Virus record (IMG/VR): IMGVR_UViG_3300034104_001181
Coordinates: 1 to 30,393 of that record
DNA from: a virus
Direction: 5' to 3' (one strand)
DNA length: 30,393 bases
In this document: piece by piece, positions 803 to 27,325 of the stretch
Position numbering within the stretch: position 1 is the stretch's first letter
How the letters are laid out: each line of letters starts with the position of its first letter
Notes under the pieces: model-generated
Seen by the model: the letters and a program-made list of their open reading frames with translations, nothing else
The model's database searches: none
What the model was told of the DNA's origin: nothing
Position numbers and translations under genes: made by a program

Positions 803-1994
803 CAAGTATCGAGTTATCGGTGAAGCTGATAGTAGATATTTTGTAGTTACAGGTGGTAGAGGATCTGGTAAATCTTACTCAGTGAATCTACTACTTACTA
901 TGCTTACTTATGAAGCAGGTCACACAATACTATTTACAAGATACACTTTAACATCAGCTTATATTTCTATCATACCTGAGTTTATAGATAAAATAGAAAC
1001 GCTAGGGTTACATAACGACTTTCACATAACGAAAGAAGAAATAGTAAATCTAAGAACTGGTAGTAAGATATTATTTAAAGGAATTAAAACAAGTAGTGGA
1101 GATCAAACAGCAAACCTTAAATCTTTACAAGGTGTTACTACTTGGGTACTAGATGAAGCAGAAGAACTAGTAGATGAAGATACTTTTGATAAAATAGATT
1201 TGTCTATTAGAAGCAAAGACAAACAGAATAGAGTTATTTTAATACTTAACCCAACTACAAAAGAGCATTGGATATATAAACGCTTCTTTGAAAGTAAAGG
1301 TATACAAGAAGGAAGTAATATAACTAAACAAGATACTACTTACATACACACAACTTATTTAGATAACTTAGATAATCTTTCGGAATCTTTTATAACTCAA
1401 ATAGAAGATATAAAGAAACGCAGACCTGAAAAGTTTAAACATCAAATCGAGGGTGGCTGGTTACAAAAAGCAGATGGTGTTATCTTTAATAATTGGAGTA
1501 TCGGTAAATACGAACACGTAGGAAAAACTGTCTGGGGACAAGATTTCGGTTTCAGTAATGATCCAACAACTTTAATAGAATGCAATATAGACGTTTCTAA
1601 CAAACGAATTTATATTAATGAATGCTTTTACTTACCTAACCTTACAACATCGCAGATATTCAATTTAAATAAGCAATACGTTAACGATGGACTTATAATA
1701 GCAGATAGTGCAGAGCCAAGATTAATAACTGAGTTAGCACAATCAGGTTTAAATATTACTCCTGCAATTAAAGGACCAGGATCTGTTACATACGGAATAA
1801 GTTTATTACAAGATTACGATTTAATAATAACACCTGAATCAGTTAACTTAATTAAAGAGTTAAACAATTACGTTTGGTTAGAAAAGAAATCAAACACTCC
1901 AATCGATGCGCACAATCACCTTTTGGACGGACTCAGATACGCTGTTAGTTATCAATTAGAGAATAAGCACAAAGGTAACTATTACGTTTACTAA
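786..1994 (+). CDS. terL: Terminase large subunit (packaging ATPase and nuclease)
   Basis: This 402-residue motor protein pumps DNA into the prohead and cuts it. The ATPase domain has Walker A GGRGSGKS at about residues 23-30, Walker B TWVLDEAEE with D123-E124, and a coupling motif ILILNPT. The RNase H-like nuclease domain shows its three acidic sites in WGQDFGFSNDPTT, IIADSAEPRLI and DAHNHLLDGLRYAV. Length and motif order fit the Terminase_3/6 type. I start it at ATG 786 (MIQINNKYRV); an in-frame TTG at 729 would add residues lying out of frame over the small subunit. The 3' end overlaps the next ATG by one base (TAATG). Confidence 0.95.
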   Translation: MIQINNKYRVIGEADSRYFVVTGGRGSGKSYSVNLLLTMLTYEAGHTILFTRYTLTSAYISIIPEFIDKIETLGLHNDFHITKEEIVNLRTGSKILFKGIKTSSGDQTANLKSLQGVTTWVLDEAEELVDEDTFDKIDLSIRSKDKQNRVILILNPTTKEHWIYKRFFESKGIQEGSNITKQDTTYIHTTYLDNLDNLSESFITQIEDIKKRRPEKFKHQIEGGWLQKADGVIFNNWSIGKYEHVGKTVWGQDFGFSNDPTTLIECNIDVSNKRIYINECFYLPNLTTSQIFNLNKQYVNDGLIIADSAEPRLITELAQSGLNITPAIKGPGSVTYGISLLQDYDLIITPESVNLIKELNNYVWLEKKSNTPIDAHNHLLDGLRYAVSYQLENKHKGNYYVY

Positions 1995-2146
1995 TGACTT
2001 ACGGAGAAATAATAGCAGTAATACAATGCTACATACATCATAGCACAGGAAAAGAAGTACAAATCAATTTACCTAGAACTGTAGGTGAGATTAAGAAGAT
2101 GAAAGCTATGTACGAAGTATCTATTAAAATGTTAAAGTTTTGTTAA
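1994..2146 (+). CDS. Small hypothetical protein
   Basis: This protein has 50 residues (MTYGEIIAVIQCYIHHSTGK...), starting at the TAATG overlap with the terminase stop. I do not recognise it. The frame ends in codons for K-M-L-K-F-C followed by TAA, which lie inside the first two TGTTAAAG operator-like repeats, so coding and regulatory sequence share the same bases here. The one-base overlap with terL implies translational coupling. Confidence 0.65.
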   Translation: MTYGEIIAVIQCYIHHSTGKEVQINLPRTVGEIKKMKAMYEVSIKMLKFC

Positions 2147-2159
2147 AGAAATGTTAAAG
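2130..2159 (+). promoter_or_regulatory. Operator-like array O1: three TGTTAAAG elements, 11-bp period
   Basis: TGTTAAAG occurs at 2130-2137, 2141-2148 and 2152-2159, exactly one 11-bp step apart, so all copies face the same side of the helix. The last copy starts 33 bp upstream of the -7 box of P1. The same tandem element at the same period precedes promoters P2, P3 and the minus-strand P4. Confidence 0.7.
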
Positions 2160-9872: not shown

Positions 9873-10466
9873 ATGAATTTAATTGAATTAATTATAGACG
9901 ATAACGAAGAATTGCAAGGTGTAGAAGCTATTAGCGTAGTAGAATCACCTGCAATAGAATCTGACTTTGTAGCTTTAAAAACAGAAGAAGTTAAACTTGC
10001 TGAGGTAAGTAAAGAAAAGCGTATCTTAATGGGTGCTGTATTAATACCGGAAAAACCTATCTATAGAAAAAGTGGAGATACTGAATATTACATTTACTTT
10101 TCTAAAGATACTGTAGTAAAAGCATCTCAATTATTTTTAAAGAAAGGTAACCAATCTAACAGCACTTTAGAACACCAAAAAGCTATTGAAGGTTTAACAG
10201 TAGTTGAAAGTTGGATAGTAGAAGATTTAACTAAAGACAAATCTGCTTTATATAATTTAAGTGTACCTGTAGGGACTTGGATGGCTTCTATAAAGGTTGA
10301 TAATGATGAAATATGGAATGACTTTGTAAAAACAGGTAAGGTTAAAGGGTTTAGTTTAGAAGGATATTTTGCAGACAAATTAGAATCTAAAAAAGAATTA
10401 AGCAAAGAACTTACAGAAGAAGAAAGTTTAATAGAGCAAATTAAAGAAGTATTAAGAAACAATTAA
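9873..10466 (+). CDS. Prohead maturation protease, XkdF-like serine protease
   Basis: This 197-residue protein would cleave scaffold and capsid delta regions during head maturation. It opens MNLIELIIDDNEELQGVEAI with VVESPAIESDF, a feature of XkdF-like (S78-type) phage proteases, followed by RILMGAVLIPEKPIYR. The likely catalytic residues are His101 in STLEHQKA and Ser161 in VKGFSLEGYF. The C-terminus is a charged helical tail (KELSKELTEEESLIEQIKEV). It lies upstream of the scaffold-like and capsid genes, as expected, but after the tape measure gene, which is not the common order. Confidence 0.85.
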   Translation: MNLIELIIDDNEELQGVEAISVVESPAIESDFVALKTEEVKLAEVSKEKRILMGAVLIPEKPIYRKSGDTEYYIYFSKDTVVKASQLFLKKGNQSNSTLEHQKAIEGLTVVESWIVEDLTKDKSALYNLSVPVGTWMASIKVDNDEIWNDFVKTGKVKGFSLEGYFADKLESKKELSKELTEEESLIEQIKEVLRNN

Positions 10467-10671: not shown

Positions 10672-10693
10672 AAATATAACAAATAAACAATTA

Positions 10694-10714: not shown

Positions 10715-11071
10715 ATGCGTAACGAATTAAACAACGTAACAAGCAAGTTATTTAAAACAGAATTAGCAAATCATAAAGTTGATCTAGCTTTAATTGATGA
10801 TATTAAAGGATCTACAAAAGGTGTAAATAATTTTTCAAATAATATTGATATAGATGTAAAAGAATTAGAACAAATTAAAAATTCTTTAACAGTTGATTTA
10901 AAAGATTTAAAACGAGATTTAGATAGATTAAAAAATGAAATAAATAAATTAAATTCAACAACTAAAGATTTAGGTTTAAATCCAGATACTATTGATGGAT
11001 ATAAAGAAGCTTTATCAGCTATTAAAAAAGGTGAAGAAAAAATAAATTTAGGTGAAAAATTTATAAAATAA
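10715..11071 (+). CDS. Hypothetical coiled-coil protein near the head genes
   Basis: This is a 118-residue, charged and helical protein. A predicted coiled coil runs over about residues 45-85 (ELEQIKNSLTVDLKDLKRDL). I do not recognise a family. Its place between protease and scaffold-like gene and its own copy of the shared leader suggest a late, head- or tail-associated product. A bidirectional-looking hairpin terminator follows at 11090, and beyond it the genes turn to the minus strand. Confidence 0.7.
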   Translation: MRNELNNVTSKLFKTELANHKVDLALIDDIKGSTKGVNNFSNNIDIDVKELEQIKNSLTVDLKDLKRDLDRLKNEINKLNSTTKDLGLNPDTIDGYKEALSAIKKGEEKINLGEKFIK

Positions 11072-11089
11072 AATATTTATAATATTAAA

Positions 11090-11117
11090 GGGTAACTTAA
11101 TTGTTACCCTTTTTTTA
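11090..11117 (+). terminator. Intrinsic terminator between convergent genes
   Basis: GGGTAAC, loop TTAATT and GTTACCC form a perfect 7-bp stem followed by eight T. It lies between the plus-strand gene ending at 11071 and the minus-strand gene ending at 11115; on the minus strand the run after the stem is only TTTAATATT, so termination there would be weaker. Confidence 0.88.
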
Positions 11118-11327
11118 TAAGTTTTCAATATGTTCTTTTAAATGATGTATTTCTGCATCTCTTTCTATAAGTTCTTCCATTAATTCATTATTTTTTACTT
11201 GTATATTATAATAATAATTTGTTTTTGATATAATTTCATCAATAAAATGTATCCATAAATAAATAATACAAGGTATCATAGTTAAGAATAACATAACAAA
11301 AAAAGTTATTTCTATTGTTTCTTTCAT
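11115..11327 (-). CDS. Small membrane-anchored coiled-coil protein (minus strand)
   Basis: This 70-residue protein has a hydrophobic segment at about residues 8-30 (ITFFVMLFLTMIPCIIYLWI), then a charged helix ending EELIERDAEIHHLKEHIENL, likely a coiled coil in the cytoplasm or periplasm. It is the last of three genes on the minus strand, an island inside the otherwise plus-strand structural region. I do not recognise it. Minus-strand inserts of this kind are often 'morons' with host-directed or exclusion roles; that is inference from position only. Its leader contains a tandem repeat (11335-11388). Confidence 0.65.
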   Translation of the reverse strand: MKETIEITFFVMLFLTMIPCIIYLWIHFIDEIISKTNYYYNIQVKNNELMEELIERDAEIHHLKEHIENL

Positions 11328-11334
11328 AATTATT

Positions 11335-11388
11335 TTTTTAAGGTTATAAGTTTAAAATTTATTTATTTTTTAAGGTTATAAGTTTAAA
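11335..11388 (-). repeat. Tandem direct repeat, 22-bp unit, 32-bp period
   Basis: The unit, five T then AAGGTTATAAGTTTAAA on the plus strand, occurs at 11335-11356 and 11367-11388 without mismatch. It lies in the leader of the minus-strand gene 11115-11327 and includes the stop of the gene 11384-11482. A repeat with AT-only spacing may be a protein-binding or RNA element, or the result of a duplication. Confidence 0.75.
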
Positions 11389-11482
11389 TTTTTTTATTTC
11401 TTTCTTTTAATTCTCCTATCTTAATATATATTCTAGCTTGTATAATATAAACTAAAATAAATGTAATAACTTTCCAAATCAT
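11384..11482 (-). CDS. Small membrane peptide (minus strand)
   Basis: This 32-residue protein begins MIWKVITFILVYIIQARIYI and ends with a basic tail KIGELKERNKKI. One hydrophobic helix covers residues 2-16. The ATG overlaps the stop of the 72-residue gene upstream on the minus strand (ATGA), so coupled translation is likely. The function is unknown. It is short, so the overlap and hydrophobic helix are its main support. Confidence 0.5.
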   Translation of the reverse strand: MIWKVITFILVYIIQARIYIKIGELKERNKKI

Positions 11483-11697
11483 AACCTTTCTATTTCTTGT
11501 TTAACTTCTGTATAAAATTTTTCAATAGCCCAATTTTCTTCATCACAATTAGAAAGTCCTAAATTCAAATCTATTATTTCATCAATTGCTATTAATGCAC
11601 ATTCCTTAGCTATATCAAAATGACCATTAAAAATATATTCACCTAATAATTGATAATATTCATCAACTAACATTTCTGCTTTTTCTTTTGGTTTCAT
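11479..11697 (-). CDS. Hypothetical acidic helical protein (minus strand)
   Basis: This acidic 72-residue protein begins MKPKEKAEMLVDEYYQLLGE and continues with FDIAKECALIAIDEIIDLNL; it is likely all-helical. Small proteins with this 'K-A-x-x-L-[VI]-x-x-[YF]' opening are common in flavobacterial phages and their hosts, but the function is not known to me. It is the first gene behind the minus-strand promoter P4 (-7 box 11712-11719), which carries the same TGTTAAA array as the plus-strand early promoters, so it is probably expressed with them. Confidence 0.7.
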   Translation of the reverse strand: MKPKEKAEMLVDEYYQLLGEYIFNGHFDIAKECALIAIDEIIDLNLGLSNCDEENWAIEKFYTEVKQEIERL

Positions 11698-11711
11698 AAT
11701 TTATTTTTTCA

Positions 11712-11741
11712 CAAATATACAAACTAATTTAATATAAAAAA
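11712..11741 (-). promoter_or_regulatory. Promoter P4 (minus strand, Bacteroidetes type)
   Basis: On the minus strand TATATTTG at 11719-11712 is a perfect -7 box. TTTT lies 18 bp upstream (11741-11738). The start ATG is at 11697, after the leader GAAAAAATAAATT. This drives the three-gene minus-strand island. Confidence 0.7.
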
Positions 11742-11743
11742 CA

Positions 11744-11762
11744 TTTTAACATAACATTAACA
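11744..11762 (-). promoter_or_regulatory. Operator-like array O4: two TGTTAA elements, 11-bp period
   Basis: On the minus strand TGTTAATG (11762-11755) and TGTTAAAA (11751-11744) are 11 bp apart; the nearer one starts 32 bp upstream of the P4 -7 box. This repeats the geometry of O1 and O3 on the opposite strand. Confidence 0.6.
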
Positions 11763-11790
11763 TTTATAAAAATGTAACAAACTATAATAA

Positions 11791-11809
11791 CTTTTATTTT
11801 AAAATAAAG
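11791..11809 (+). promoter_or_regulatory. AT-rich structural-gene leader motif (copy 5, diverged)
   Basis: CTTTTATTTTAAAATAAAG lies 24 bp before ATG 11834. Upstream (about 11759-11778) is an imperfect inverted repeat, AACATTT then AAATGT. No TAnnTTTG box facing the plus strand is evident in this divergent spacer. Confidence 0.35.
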
Positions 11810-11833
11810 TATTTAACTAAATTAAATATAAAT

Positions 11834-12427
11834 ATGTCAAATGTAATTAATCAAATCAAAACCATTTTGGGAATGGAAGTAAAACTTGCCCAAATGAAGT
11901 TAGATAACGGAACGGTTTTAGAAGCTGAAGCTTTTGAGGCTGGTATGCCTGTTTTTATCGTTAACGAAGAAGATCGTATCGCTTTACCAGTTGGAGAGTA
12001 CAAACTAGAAGATGGTATGATGCTAATCGTTGTTGAAGAAGGTATTATCGCTGAAGTTAAAGAAGCAGAAATGCCTGAAGCTGAAGCAGAAATGCCTGAA
12101 GTAGAAGTAGAAATGCCTGAAGTAGAAGTAGAAGTTGAGCAAGAAATGTCAGAAACTGCTACTCCTAAAAAAGTTATCGAATCTACTATTAGAGAATCTC
12201 ACTTTTCAAAAGAAGAAGTAGACGCTTTAAAAGCAGAAATTGAAGCTTTAAAAACTGAATTAGCTTCTTTAAAAGAAGTAAAAGAAGAAGAAGGTGTAGA
12301 ATTATCTGCACAACCTTTAGTACACAACCCAGAAGCTAAATCTGAAGTTAAATTAAACTTATACTCACAAAGCAGAAGTAAAACTACTTTTGATACTGTG
12401 TTAGGTAAAATTGCAAATATTAAATAA
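11834..12427 (+). CDS. Putative capsid scaffolding protein
   Basis: This very acidic 197-residue protein lies directly upstream of the major capsid gene. The first part (residues 1-75) contains QMKLDNGTVLEAEAFEAGMP and LPVGEYKLEDGMMLIVVEEG. Then a Glu-rich repeat of EMPEVEV-type heptads (about residues 79-105), a coiled coil (KEEVDALKAEIEALKTELAS) and a basic C-terminus ending SKTTFDTVLGKIANIK follow. Acidic body plus basic capsid-binding tail is the usual scaffold plan, and I know this family just before capsid genes of Bacteroidetes phages. The head protease upstream may remove it. Confidence 0.72.
   Translation: MSNVINQIKTILGMEVKLAQMKLDNGTVLEAEAFEAGMPVFIVNEEDRIALPVGEYKLEDGMMLIVVEEGIIAEVKEAEMPEAEAEMPEVEVEMPEVEVEVEQEMSETATPKKVIESTIRESHFSKEEVDALKAEIEALKTELASLKEVKEEEGVELSAQPLVHNPEAKSEVKLNLYSQSRSKTTFDTVLGKIANIK
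12066..12136 (+). repeat. In-frame 21-bp tandem repeat coding EMPE(V/A)E(V/A)
   Basis: Three tandem units of GAAATGCCTGAAG plus eight more bases encode EMPEAEA, EMPEVEV and EMPEVEV inside the scaffold-like gene. The last two are nearly identical at DNA level, suggesting recent duplication and likely length variation between relatives. Confidence 0.75.
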
Positions 12428-12450: not shown

Positions 12451-13404
12451 ATGCCGACTACAACATCAATTACAACTACTTATGCTGGTGAATTTGCAGG
12501 TAAATATATCTCTGCTGCTTTATTATCAGCTGCTACTATCGAAAACGGTGGTATTGAAGTAAAACCAAACGTTAAATACAAAGAAGTAATTAAAAAAATT
12601 GCTACTGATGCTATCGTTAAAGATGCAACTTGTGACTTTACTGCTACTTCTACTGTAACTTTAACTGAGAAAATTTTACAACCTGAAGAATTTCAAGTAA
12701 ACTTACAACTTTGTAAAAAAGATTTCCACTCAGATTGGGAAGCTGTACAAATGGGTTACTCTGCTTTTGATTCTTTGCCACCATCATTTGCTGATTTCAT
12801 TTTATCTCACGTAGCTGCTAAAGTTGCTGAGAAAACAGAACAAAACATCTGGAGAGGTGTTACTGCTAATGCAGGTGAATTTAACGGATTCGCTACATTA
12901 TTAGCTGCTGATGCTGCTTTACCAACTGCACAAGAAGTTGCTGGTACTACAGTTACTGCTTCTAACGTAGTTGCTGAGTTAGGAAAAATTGTTGATGCAG
13001 TTCCTGCTTCACTTTACGGAAAAGAAGATTTATACTTATATGTGTCTCAAAACATCGCTAGAGCTTATGTAAGAGCTTTAGGTGGTTTTGGTGCTTCAGG
13101 TTTAGGTGCTAATGGTACTAACAATATGGGTACACAATGGTGGAATAACGGAAGTTTATCATTTGATGGTATTAAAATTTTCGTTGCTAATGGTTTAGCT
13201 GCTAACACTGCTGTAGCTACTTTAAAATCTAATTTATTCTTTGGAACAGGTTTATTAAACGACCTTAACCAAGTTAAATTGATTGATATGGCAGATTTAG
13301 ATGGATCTGAAAATGTAAGAGTAGTTGTACGTTTCACTGCAGGTGTACAATACGGAATTGTTGAGGATATCGTAACTTACGGAATCACTAACTCTGCTAA
13401 CTAA
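12451..13404 (+). CDS. Major capsid protein
   Basis: This 317-residue protein is the main shell subunit. The sequence MPTTTSITTTYAGEFAGKYI, VKYKEVIKKIATDAIVKDAT and NLQLCKKDFHSDWEAVQMGY matches the Bacteroidetes-phage major capsid family that I know from flavobacterial and gut phages. It presumably has the HK97 fold. Ala/Gly-rich stretches and well-used codons (GCT, GTT, AAC, TTC are more frequent than in neighbours) fit high expression. It follows scaffold by 23 bp and is followed by a strong terminator at 13427. Confidence 0.88.
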   Translation: MPTTTSITTTYAGEFAGKYISAALLSAATIENGGIEVKPNVKYKEVIKKIATDAIVKDATCDFTATSTVTLTEKILQPEEFQVNLQLCKKDFHSDWEAVQMGYSAFDSLPPSFADFILSHVAAKVAEKTEQNIWRGVTANAGEFNGFATLLAADAALPTAQEVAGTTVTASNVVAELGKIVDAVPASLYGKEDLYLYVSQNIARAYVRALGGFGASGLGANGTNNMGTQWWNNGSLSFDGIKIFVANGLAANTAVATLKSNLFFGTGLLNDLNQVKLIDMADLDGSENVRVVVRFTAGVQYGIVEDIVTYGITNSAN

Positions 13405-22186: not shown

Positions 22187-22205
22187 TGTTAAAAATTTGT
22201 TAAAG
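22187..22205 (+). promoter_or_regulatory. Operator-like array O2: two TGTTAAA elements, 11-bp period
   Basis: TGTTAAA at 22187 and TGTTAAAG at 22198 are 11 bp apart and begin just after the terminator. The nearer copy starts 43 bp upstream of the P2 -7 box, one helical turn further than in O1 and O3. Confidence 0.65.
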
Positions 22206-22218
22206 TATTAATATTTAG

Positions 22219-22248
22219 TTTGGTATTTAAAAAATAGTTATATATTTG
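22219..22248 (+). promoter_or_regulatory. Promoter P2 (Bacteroidetes type)
   Basis: TTTG at 22219-22222, 18-bp spacer and TATATTTG at 22241-22248. It is followed by the leader CATAATTAAAAACAAA shared with P1. This is the best promoter in the window and drives the recombination/replication operon. Confidence 0.85.
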
Positions 22249-22272: not shown

Positions 22273-22449
22273 ATGAAAGATTTAATCGATTACCAAAGAT
22301 TTCAAGTAGAAGCACTACAAAGAAAAGTTTGCGACCTTGAAAGTAAATTAAATGAAGTAAAAACCTATGTGTTTGAACTTTGTGAAGATGATTGCCCAGA
22401 AGAGTACAAAACAATTATTAAACAACAACTTTACGAAATTAGCAAGTAA
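22273..22449 (+). CDS. Small helical protein, first gene of P2 operon
   Basis: This 58-residue acidic protein (MKDLIDYQRFQVEALQRKVC...) has a probable coiled coil at residues 8-32 and an acidic C-rich part (FELCEDDCPEEY). The stop TAA overlaps the next ATG (TAATG), so it is coupled to the ERF gene. I do not recognise it. Each TGTTAAA-controlled promoter is followed directly by such a short ORF. Confidence 0.6.
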   Translation: MKDLIDYQRFQVEALQRKVCDLESKLNEVKTYVFELCEDDCPEEYKTIIKQQLYEISK

Positions 22450-23018
22450 TGAAATTATTACACGAAAAACTAAGTAAAATCCAAGTAGAATTTAAATCGA
22501 ATAAAAGTAAATTTAATTCATTTGGTAAGTACAATTTTAGAAGTGCAGAAGATATTTTAGAAGCACTTAAACCATTTAATGAAAAGTATGGTGTATACTT
22601 TACTATAACTGAGGAATGTTTATTTTATGGTGATATACCAACTATTTCTTCAGCAGCAACTATACACGATATTGATGGTGTACAGGAAATTAAAGCTACT
22701 GCAATAGTAGGAGTTGATTTAGCACAAAAAGGTATGCAGATTCCACAAGCTTTTGGATCAGCCTCTAGTTATGGTAAAAAGTATGCTTTAGGTAACTTAT
22801 TACTTATTGACGATACACAAGATGCAGATGCAACTAATACACACGGAAAAGAAAGTAAACCAGAAGTTAAAGAAAAAGAGTTATCTTGGCTGAATAAAAA
22901 TACACCTGAATTTACACAAGCTATTGAATACTTAAAAAAAGGTGGTAAATTAGCAGCAATAGAAACTAAATACAAATTATCAAAATCAGTAAAAGACGAA
23001 TTATTAAAAATTAAATAA
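22449..23018 (+). CDS. ERF-family single-strand annealing protein
   Basis: This 189-residue protein would anneal complementary single strands in phage recombination. The ERF pattern is clear: FGKYNFRSAEDILEALKPFN near the start, YFTITEE, EIKATAIVGVDLAQKGMQIP, then AFGSASSYGKKYALGNLLLI followed by DDTQDADATN. The remainder is a charged C-terminal tail with KKGGKLAAIETKYKLSKSVK, perhaps for partner binding. The neighbours (SSB-like protein, RecA-like helicase, exonuclease) support a recombination-replication module. It is preceded by the 58-residue gene with a TAATG overlap. Confidence 0.92.
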   Translation: MKLLHEKLSKIQVEFKSNKSKFNSFGKYNFRSAEDILEALKPFNEKYGVYFTITEECLFYGDIPTISSAATIHDIDGVQEIKATAIVGVDLAQKGMQIPQAFGSASSYGKKYALGNLLLIDDTQDADATNTHGKESKPEVKEKELSWLNKNTPEFTQAIEYLKKGGKLAAIETKYKLSKSVKDELLKIK

Positions 23019-23035
23019 CTATTAAATTAAAAATT

Positions 23036-23329
23036 ATGAGTACATTATTAAACATTGGAATTAAACAACAAGATGGAAGTTATAAAAACTATACTTTATC
23101 TTTAAACGATGAAACTAACGGATACGGACAAAATGTTTCAGTATGGGAATCACAAACTAAAGAACAACAAGCTGCAAAAGAACAAAGAAACTTTGTAGGT
23201 AACGGAAAAGTAGTTTGGACTGATGGTAATGTTAAAGTAGCTGATAAAGTTGTAACTAATACAGAACACAACAACGCTAGGAACATTAAAGTAAATGGTG
23301 CTGAGGTAGTTGCTGATTTACCATTTTAA
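23036..23329 (+). CDS. Putative single-stranded DNA-binding protein
   Basis: This 97-residue protein begins MSTLLNIGIKQQDGSYKNYT and looks like an OB-type small beta protein (LSLNDETNGYGQNVSVWESQ, KVVWTDGNVKVADKV). It ends VVADLPF, resembling the DDLPF/DIPF acidic tip by which SSB proteins recruit partners. Position between the annealing protein and the helicase strongly suggests SSB. The length is short for a canonical SSB and the fold is inferred. Codon use shows higher AAC/GGT, as in a well-expressed protein. A terminator follows at 23338. Confidence 0.62.
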   Translation: MSTLLNIGIKQQDGSYKNYTLSLNDETNGYGQNVSVWESQTKEQQAAKEQRNFVGNGKVVWTDGNVKVADKVVTNTEHNNARNIKVNGAEVVADLPF

Positions 23330-23337
23330 TTTATCAA

Positions 23338-23364
23338 GGGTAGTGTAAAAGCTACCCTTTTTTT
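23338..23364 (+). terminator. Intrinsic terminator after the SSB-like gene
   Basis: GGGTAG, loop TGTAAAAG and CTACCC form a 6-bp stem, followed by seven T. The next ATG (23379) is close and no new promoter is obvious, so this may act as an attenuator that lowers helicase expression. Confidence 0.8.
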
Positions 23365-23378
23365 AAACAAAAAAAACT

Positions 23379-24287
23379 ATGTTAGCGAATTTATTAGATA
23401 TACAAAAAAACATTTTAGATGTTAAATATGGTAGAGTTAAAGAAGGACTTAAAATAAACATACCAGAGTTTGACGAACACATTAGATTTAAACCTGCAAA
23501 CTTTAACGTAATTATAGGACACGCAAACGTAGGAAAAACTACAGTTATTCTTTACTTAATGACTATGTATACAATAAAGCATAATATTAAGTGGTTAATC
23601 TTTTCAAGTGAAAATACCTCAACCTCAGTAGCTAGAAAAATACTAGAATTTGCTAGAAATAAAGCAATACAGCAAATGACTGATGATGAAATAGAATTTG
23701 GTTTAAACTGGGTATTACAGCACTTTAAAATAATTGATGTAGATAAACTATACACTTATAAAGATTTACTTAAAGAAGCTAAAGAAATACACGATGAATG
23801 GCACTATGAAGGTTTACTTATTGACCCTTACAATTCATTAGCAAAAGATAGAGATTTAATGAAAAATGTAGGTAGCCACGAATACGATTATCAAGTATCT
23901 AGTGAAATGCGTTTATTTTGTAAAGAAAATCAAATATCTATTTGGTTAAATACCCACGCTGTTACAGAAGCTTTAAGAAGAACACACCCAAAAGAACACG
24001 AATATAATGGTTTACCAGTGCCACCCAATATGGCAGATGTAGAAGGTGGTGGTAAATGGGGTAACAGGGCAGACGATGTATTTACTATACATAGATATAC
24101 ACAGCATCCTACAGATTGGATGATTAGCGAAGTACACGTTAGAAAAGTTAAAGAAGTAGAAACAGGTGGTAGGCCTACCTCAATAGATGCACCTATTAAA
24201 TTAAGAATGATGCCTAACAATATTGGCTTTACTTATGCAGGTGTAAACTTACTACAAGCAAAAAACATTAAAGGATTGGACTTTTAG
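23379..24287 (+). CDS. DnaB-like helicase / RecA-fold ATPase
   Basis: This 302-residue RecA-fold ATPase would unwind the replication fork or load on recombination intermediates. Walker A is GHANVGKTT at residues 47-55; Walker B is GLLIDPYNS with Asp149; SSEMRLFCKENQISIWLNTH provides the sensor-like 'N-T-H' strand. It lacks the N-terminal helical domain of full DnaB, so it is closer to phage-type helicases of about 300 residues or a RecA-like KaiC relative. It follows the SSB-like gene and a terminator/attenuator. Confidence 0.8.
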   Translation: MLANLLDIQKNILDVKYGRVKEGLKINIPEFDEHIRFKPANFNVIIGHANVGKTTVILYLMTMYTIKHNIKWLIFSSENTSTSVARKILEFARNKAIQQMTDDEIEFGLNWVLQHFKIIDVDKLYTYKDLLKEAKEIHDEWHYEGLLIDPYNSLAKDRDLMKNVGSHEYDYQVSSEMRLFCKENQISIWLNTHAVTEALRRTHPKEHEYNGLPVPPNMADVEGGGKWGNRADDVFTIHRYTQHPTDWMISEVHVRKVKEVETGGRPTSIDAPIKLRMMPNNIGFTYAGVNLLQAKNIKGLDF

Positions 24288-25070: not shown

Positions 25071-25251
25071 TTTATTAATATTTACTCTAATAACTTGGGC
25101 GGTTTACTCAGGTAAAGAGTTACAATTTGCAATTATACACGGCTTTATGATAGGCTGTTTATACGATGTAGATCAACAAGAAGAAGAAAATTACCACACT
25201 ATACAGGTGTTACTAGGTATTTTATCAATTAATATTTTATGGGAATCTTAG
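25054..25251 (+). CDS. Small membrane protein
   Basis: The 65-residue protein begins MILLTSLLIFTLITWAVYSG, one hydrophobic helix, and continues GKELQFAIIHGFMIGCLYDV, then an acidic loop DQQEEENYHTI and a second, weaker hydrophobic end VLLGILSINILWES. Two-segment hairpin topology is possible. Small proteins with an 'LLGI-x-S-I-x-x-LWE' ending occur in Bacteroidetes phages, as I recall; function unknown. It overlaps both neighbours. Confidence 0.62.
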   Translation: MILLTSLLIFTLITWAVYSGKELQFAIIHGFMIGCLYDVDQQEEENYHTIQVLLGILSINILWES

Positions 25252-25751
25252 AAAAAGTTGCAGAGTACCAAGATTACTTAGTAGAATTAGCTTCAGTATT
25301 TGACTCAGAATTTGCAGAAGATATTGTACAAGAATTTTACCTTTTGCTACATAAATACAAAGTAACAGAAGAACAAATGTTTACTAATGGTAAATTAAAT
25401 AGAGGTTATTGCTTTATTATTATTAGAAACATACATTTTCAAATTTACAATGTTAAGAAACGAATAACTAAATGCGAATTAAATGAAGAAATTTACAATA
25501 TGGTAGATGACTTTGATTTAGAAAAAGAGTTAGATTGGAACGAATTTAGAATTAAAGCAGAATCTGAAGTAAACAACTGGGATTGGTACGATAAAAAACT
25601 ATTTTCTATTTATAGAGATTCTAATATTAGTATTAGAGGACTTGCAAAAGAAACAGGAATAAGCTTTGTAAGTATATTCCACTCACTAAAAAAACATAAA
25701 GAAAAATTAAAAGAATTATTAAAAGAAGATTACGATAACTTAAAACTATAA
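25239..25751 (+). CDS. Sigma-factor-like regulatory protein
   Basis: This 170-residue protein has a sigma-70-like plan: an N-terminal region with SEFAEDIVQEFYLLLHKYKV, like region 2, then RGYCFIIIRNIHFQIYNVKK, then a C-terminal helix-turn-helix NISIRGLAKETGISFVSIFH followed by SLKKHKEKLKELLKEDYDNL, like region 4. A Trp-rich linker (NNWDWYDKK) separates them. It could redirect host RNA polymerase to phage promoters, perhaps the shared leader of structural genes; that target is a guess. It overlaps the upstream small membrane gene by 13 bp. Confidence 0.65.
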   Translation: MGILEKVAEYQDYLVELASVFDSEFAEDIVQEFYLLLHKYKVTEEQMFTNGKLNRGYCFIIIRNIHFQIYNVKKRITKCELNEEIYNMVDDFDLEKELDWNEFRIKAESEVNNWDWYDKKLFSIYRDSNISIRGLAKETGISFVSIFHSLKKHKEKLKELLKEDYDNLKL

Positions 25752-27261: not shown

Positions 27262-27274
27262 CTTCCTTTTTTTT
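27249..27274 (+). terminator. Intrinsic terminator overlapping the MPIP gene stop
   Basis: GGAAGC (27250-27255), loop AAATA and GCTTCC form a 6-bp stem followed by eight T. The stop TAG (27259-27261) is in the loop and stem. Confidence 0.88.
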
Positions 27275-27292
27275 GTTAAATATTTGTTAAAA
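27274..27292 (+). promoter_or_regulatory. Operator-like array O3: two TGTTAAA elements, 11-bp period
   Basis: TGTTAAAT at 27274 and TGTTAAAA at 27285 are 11 bp apart and start at the end of the terminator T-run. The nearer copy starts 33 bp upstream of the P3 -7 box, as at P1. Confidence 0.65.
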
Positions 27293-27295
27293 AGT

Positions 27296-27325
27296 TTTGT
27301 AGTTAAAATAGAAGTTTTATATTTG
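27296..27325 (+). promoter_or_regulatory. Promoter P3 (Bacteroidetes type)
   Basis: TTTG at 27296-27299, 18-bp spacer and TATATTTG at 27318-27325, identical in geometry to P2. The leader TATAATTTAAAAACAAAC leads to ATG 27349. It drives the exonuclease-methyltransferase operon. Confidence 0.85.

Follow-up and report, generated by a model that had tools for sequence, protein, structure and literature searches.

A putative moron-like cassette on the minus strand, with an early-type promoter, in the head-gene cluster of a probable Bacteroidota phage

The DNA analysed here (the window) comprises 30,393 bases, a linear IMG/VR virus record from a phage whose host is probably a flavobacterial member of the Bacteroidota. 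Its plus-strand head genes include a head maturation protease of the Peptidase_S78_2 family (9873-10466), p118 (10715-11071), a scaffold-like protein (11834-12427) and a phrog_11320-family head protein (12451-13404) which, judging from its size and the gene order, we take to be the major capsid protein. The protease and the scaffold-like protein match two parts of one 349-aa profile, phrog_24921. Between p118 and the scaffold gene lies an island of three small minus-strand ORFs of 72, 32 and 70 aa. The preliminary description had pointed to a single change of direction in the genome, and this is indeed the only place in the window where minus-strand ORFs occur without being overlapped by plus-strand genes. 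The convergent genes are separated by an intrinsic-terminator-like hairpin (11087-11112). Its U tract is strong in the plus-strand RNA but weak in the opposite one, which makes it less certain that the minus transcript ends here.

The first gene of the island, P0001 (11479-11697, 72 aa), codes for a predicted three-helix bundle (pLDDT 88.5) and matches phrog_21441 at 1e-14. This family, found at 28 loci and itself without function, was the only match of P0001 in Pfam and PHROGs searches. Comparison of the predicted structure with the PDB gave no match below E 0.5, and the best matches in a viral structure library were uncharacterised phage proteins. The P0001 stop codon is overlapped by the ATG of a putative 32-aa hydrophobic peptide ORF (11384-11482). 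P0002 (11115-11327, 70 aa), with its hydrophobic N-terminal and charged C-terminal halves, has weak matches only in Pfam and PHROGs. At the DNA level, there were no near matches to the window among phage records.

The promoter elements of the island stand exactly where the preliminary description had placed them. The minus strand read from 11762 is TGTTAATGTTATGTTAAAATGTTTTTTATATTAAATTAGTTTGTATATTTGTGAAAAAATAAATTATG. It contains an activator-like 11-bp direct repeat of the TGTTAA-N5-TGTTAA type (11762-11746), made of TGTTAATG starting at 11762 and TGTTAAAA starting at 11751. The second copy begins 32 bp upstream of TATATTTG (11719-11712), an exact match to TAnnTTTG, the consensus of the Bacteroidota sigma-A type -7 box as given in two Flavobacterium promoter papers (PMC9723704; PMC6847099). 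The ATG of P0001 follows at 11697. TTTT is present at the spacing expected for the -33 TTTG box, which makes this a weak box.

Five exact repeats are present in the window: at 2130, 2141, 22187 and 27274 on the plus strand and at 11746-11762 on the minus strand, while 1000 dinucleotide shuffles of the window contained 0.042 on average. The composite of the repeat and TAnnTTTG at 32, 33, 42 or 43 bp was seen three times (0.001 expected from 1000 dinucleotide shuffles), in agreement with the earlier claim that such an arrangement is hard to obtain by chance. TAnnTTTG alone is not enriched in the window (50 seen, 56 expected), so the signal resides in the combination of repeat and box. Two promoters built alike are located on the plus strand. 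One of them (22187-22248, 43 bp) precedes 22273 and the recombination/replication operon with an Erf-like annealing protein and a DnaB-like helicase (22273-24287), the other (27274-27325, 33 bp) stands before 27349 and a DUF3799 nuclease. Both of these promoters (the ones at 22241 and 27318) have the -33 TTTG, unlike the minus promoter. Three TGTTAA copies in 11-bp steps (2130-2157, plus strand) are located in front of a small ORF at about 2218, with a degenerate -7 box. The minus promoter shares its architecture with those of the Erf-like/DnaB-like and DUF3799 nuclease operons, which supports the proposed connection of the island with early operons. Its putative early-type expression appears well supported by comparison. 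The accompanying suggestion that the small proteins of the island may act on the host early is plausible.

We collected 80 relatives by a capsid search with the phrog_11320-family head protein. In 878 kb of capsid relatives and the window, there are 18 exact repeats, compared to two occurrences of a control hexamer pair, and in 16 of the 18 the second copy begins 32/33 or 42/43 bp upstream of TAnnTTTG. In the capsid relatives, repeat promoters are located mainly at early operons. A set of 116 non-redundant intergenic -7 boxes, chosen without selecting on the repeat, has TGTTA peaks at 32-33, 43 and 54 bp upstream, with 11 bp as the commonest spacing of TGTTA pairs. If the -7 box is placed at -12 to -5, the repeats lie at about -44/-55 or one turn further upstream. 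This location suggests an activator site rather than the operator named in the preliminary description; no repressor was found.

Among 28 phage records tested, the repeat is mostly confined to the capsid relatives, and Nonlabens phage P12024S has none. The composite is also very rare in potential hosts: 100 Flavobacteriaceae genomes have 15 matches (control matches were few), several of which stand before unrelated host genes. Four host genomes (L240, L244, L245 and L247) carry a repeated gene family with a TGTTAA-repeat promoter-like site, and TGTTAAAGTTTTGTTAAAG is present as in the phages at two of these sites. RteC regulators were considered as the genes behind the host composites and dropped, as Pfam gives a LETM1-like domain instead; it is located at the C-terminus of the L240 family member. 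Separately, TTAACA-N5-TTAACA-like repeats at the host pst loci L274-L281 constitute a possible Flavobacteriaceae Pho box.

The phage promoters resemble Bacteroidota sigma-A promoters (-33 TTTG/-7 TAnnTTTG) in the exact -7 match and in the short, A-rich leader. They differ from these promoters, as far as the latter are described in the available text, by the addition of the upstream 11-bp TGTTAA repeat and, in the case of the minus promoter, by the weak -33 box. The 11-bp TGTTAA repeat is absent from the accessible parts of the two Flavobacterium promoter papers (PMC9723704; PMC6847099), and a literature search of partial coverage for such repeats at the promoters of Flavobacterium or Bacteroides phages returned nothing relevant.

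Comparison with the sister genomes L045, L029 and L048 defines the borders of the island. The flanks are about 90% identical in DNA, and the only break in identity runs from 10782-10806, within the conserved beginning of p118, to 11800-11819, shortly upstream of the scaffold gene. The exchanged cassette (approximately 10790-11812) includes the variable end of p118, the hairpin, the three minus genes with their promoter and a TGTAACAAA element. In its place the sisters have a short replacement, in which p118 ends differently and no minus genes precede the scaffold gene. GC content of the cassette is 18.4% compared to 28.2% for the window, and the minus-gene stretch belongs to the lowest 2.5% of 600-bp windows by GC.

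The product of p118 has a conserved N-terminus and a hypervariable coiled-coil-like C-terminal part. Members of its family, known in the window and 37 relatives, have a conserved N-terminal LFKTELASQKVELALIDD-like tag, and their genes adjoin those of the head protease and scaffold; in L074 (6754-7668) a family member is fused to the protease. Such proteins might reside inside the head and bear a targeting tag, similar to the internal proteins of T4.

The TGTAACAAA sequence (11773-11781, plus strand), located before the scaffold gene and beside the minus repeat, is a copy of a candidate late-gene element. The consensus of this element is AATTTATAACAAA. It is found in the family in 33 non-redundant copies, mostly 41-62 nt before late genes, and the window has copies at 10675, 11773 and 14067. 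The TATAACAA motif has a pronounced strand bias in the family (144 plus, 28 minus), and a plus-strand bias of the AATTTATAACAAA element is also seen in the relatives L029-L108. We infer that the TATAACAAA element may be a late promoter. With a copy at 11773, between the minus repeat and the scaffold gene, transcription of the head genes could restart there after the hairpin. A weak match to the phage sigma factor profile phrog_1740 (E 0.0004) was found at 25239-25751 in the window, which makes its product a candidate late regulator.

Minus-strand promoters of the repeat type are found five times: in the window, twice in L034 and once each in L059 and L097. All of them precede minus-strand ORFs, each island is located directly behind a p118-family gene, and hairpins separate the convergent genes in all five cases (z -3.2 to -4.3). 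The islands are rare. At the head locus they are present in the window and two of about 60 relatives, and two more lie downstream of the capsid gene. The cargo differs: the L059 island consists of a tRNA-like gene and three small ORFs, while those of L034 and L097 code for other small proteins. The L059 tRNA-like gene (1247-1327, minus strand), for which an odd anticodon was called, is located directly behind the repeat promoter. The two L034 islands have promoter blocks 86% identical and different genes, suggesting that the promoter block and the start of p118 may be recombination anchors. The preliminary description asked whether relatives carry the island and its promoter as one cassette. 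Judging by the sisters that lack both and by the recurrence in L034, L059 and L097, they do, and minus genes are present in every relative that has the minus motif.

Further minus islands, in L077 and L090, code for endonuclease VII-like proteins and have a -7 box that is not accompanied by the exact repeat. A conserved leader precedes the endonuclease VII-like gene on the minus strand (about 8010-8160 in L077, about 3872-4020 in L090) and contains pseudoknot-like complementarity, CCGCCAAG...CTTGGCGG and CCCTCT...AGAGGGGG. An Rfam search of six sources, including the L077/L090 leader, gave no match.

Relatives of the island genes are also found in early regions. In L002, a P0002 relative (58% identical) adjoins a P0001 relative, both of them located on the main strand of the early region between a DnaA-like gene and the terminase. 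Three capsid relatives have P0001-family genes at this place, likewise on the main strand, and a further family member follows a helicase gene in the early region of Nonlabens phage P12024S. In each of the two L034 islands, the first gene has a weak match to the P0001 family (E 0.0034 and 0.013). The best evidence comes from L233, where a P0001-family gene stands directly behind a repeat promoter orthologous to the one at 27274 in the window. This suggests that the island carries early genes which have moved into the late region.

An extra transcription unit inserted between conserved virion genes is reminiscent of the morons (Juhala et al., 2000; Hendrix et al., 2000) described for SPP1 (PMC6316719) and 0305phi8-36 (PMC2147016). 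The late region of SPP1 is interrupted by a segment with three moron genes bracketed by transcription signals (PMC6316719), and one moron of 0305phi8-36 is inverted (PMC2147016). Like morons, the island is absent from close relatives with contiguous flanks (L045, L029, L048), differs in base composition and codes for small proteins without assigned function. Its own promoter would be provided by the repeat and TATATTTG, whose geometry is conserved in relatives. The place of the terminator would be taken by the strong hairpin at 11087-11112, although its U tract favours plus-strand termination. Unlike morons, the island uses the early-type promoter of the family, is always located behind a p118-family gene and takes the variable part of p118 along in the exchange.

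Other explanations of the repeat concern the factor that recognises it. It could be an A/T-rich UP element of the host RNA polymerase, in which case the promoter would be merely strong and not of an early class. The repeats, one helical turn apart at about -44/-55, do occupy the place of the alpha-CTD subsites in other bacteria. However, Flavobacteriaceae rRNA promoters have A tracts in this position and no TGTTAA repeat, the relatives keep TGTTAA in both copies, and the composite hardly occurs in hosts, so we consider this explanation unlikely. Somewhat less likely still is a Pho-box-like site, through which a host OmpR/PhoB-type response regulator would activate both the early operons and the island, e.g., under phosphate stress. 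Such a regulator is possible because pst-linked host promoters have the same hexamer at 11-bp spacing: in several Flavobacteriaceae, TTAACA-N5-TTAACA-like repeats, the reverse complement of which is TGTTAA-N5-TGTTAA, immediately precede the -7 region of genes for porin-like proteins (about 400 aa) located next to pstS. Spacing of 11 bp is typical of OmpR/PhoB-type regulators, but it is also simply one helical turn. The phage repeat shares the spacing and the hexamer with the Pho boxes of PhoB/PhoP-type regulators and differs in orientation and position. In the host, TTAACA is read on the coding strand and adjoins the -7 box, whereas the phage TGTTAA is further upstream, at 32/43 bp. Moreover, none of the 15 host composites stands before an obvious phosphate gene. 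PhoB and Pho boxes are discussed for a Synechococcus virus under phosphate stress (PMC10976474).

The island itself could be an insertion of the free-standing homing endonuclease type and not a moron with early genes. The minus-strand endonuclease VII-like genes of L077 and L090, located between p64 and scaffold and equipped with their own -7 box, give a precedent. Still, neither P0001 nor P0002 matches a nuclease family and the exact repeat is missing from the L077/L090 promoters, which leaves this explanation very improbable. We give just as little credence to the idea that the minus ORFs are not genes and that the repeat serves the head genes of the plus strand or simply results from A/T-richness. 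In a block of 18% GC, chance ORFs and motifs are indeed commoner, but P0001 is a member of a conserved family and a relative 58% identical to P0002 exists, while the composite is not reached by chance and its geometry recurs before other minus ORFs.

Overall, we favour the minus island as a moron-like accessory cassette of the head-gene cluster, equipped with the early-type promoter of the family and exchanged as one unit, and estimate the probability of this account at about 80%. Its promoter architecture with the conservation of this, its boundaries, the hairpin, the recurrence with other cargo and the relatives of P0001 in early regions are read from the sequence. The early-type promoter would combine the host sigma-A -7 box with an 11-bp TGTTAA repeat three or four helical turns upstream, and this repeat is most likely a binding site of a transcription activator. 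The cassette would be swapped between the start of p118 and the sequence just before the scaffold gene. Its genes are probably transcribed with the early operons, the head genes would be read later from the plus-strand elements, and the hairpin would separate the two convergent units. Timing, the identity of the activator, the late function of the TATAACAAA element and action on the host are the inferred parts of this scheme.

More tentatively, we speculate that the exchange site of the head cluster swaps inverted early operons and the variable half of a structural-region protein in one recombination event, changing a possibly head-packaged protein along with early-expressed proteins, and that the TGTTAA repeat is a new phage-enriched activator site of Bacteroidota sigma-A promoters. 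Such a combination is possible, though doubtful as a whole. The sequence rule of TGTTAA-N5-TGTTAA followed by 26/27 or 36/37 bp to TAnnTTTG would predict early-type promoters in Bacteroidota phages of a large and mostly uncultured group, on whose promoters few data were found. The locus may be a hotspot for accessory-gene exchange and a place to seek host-takeover or counter-defence proteins, and the question of which factor turns on the early genes of these phages becomes testable.
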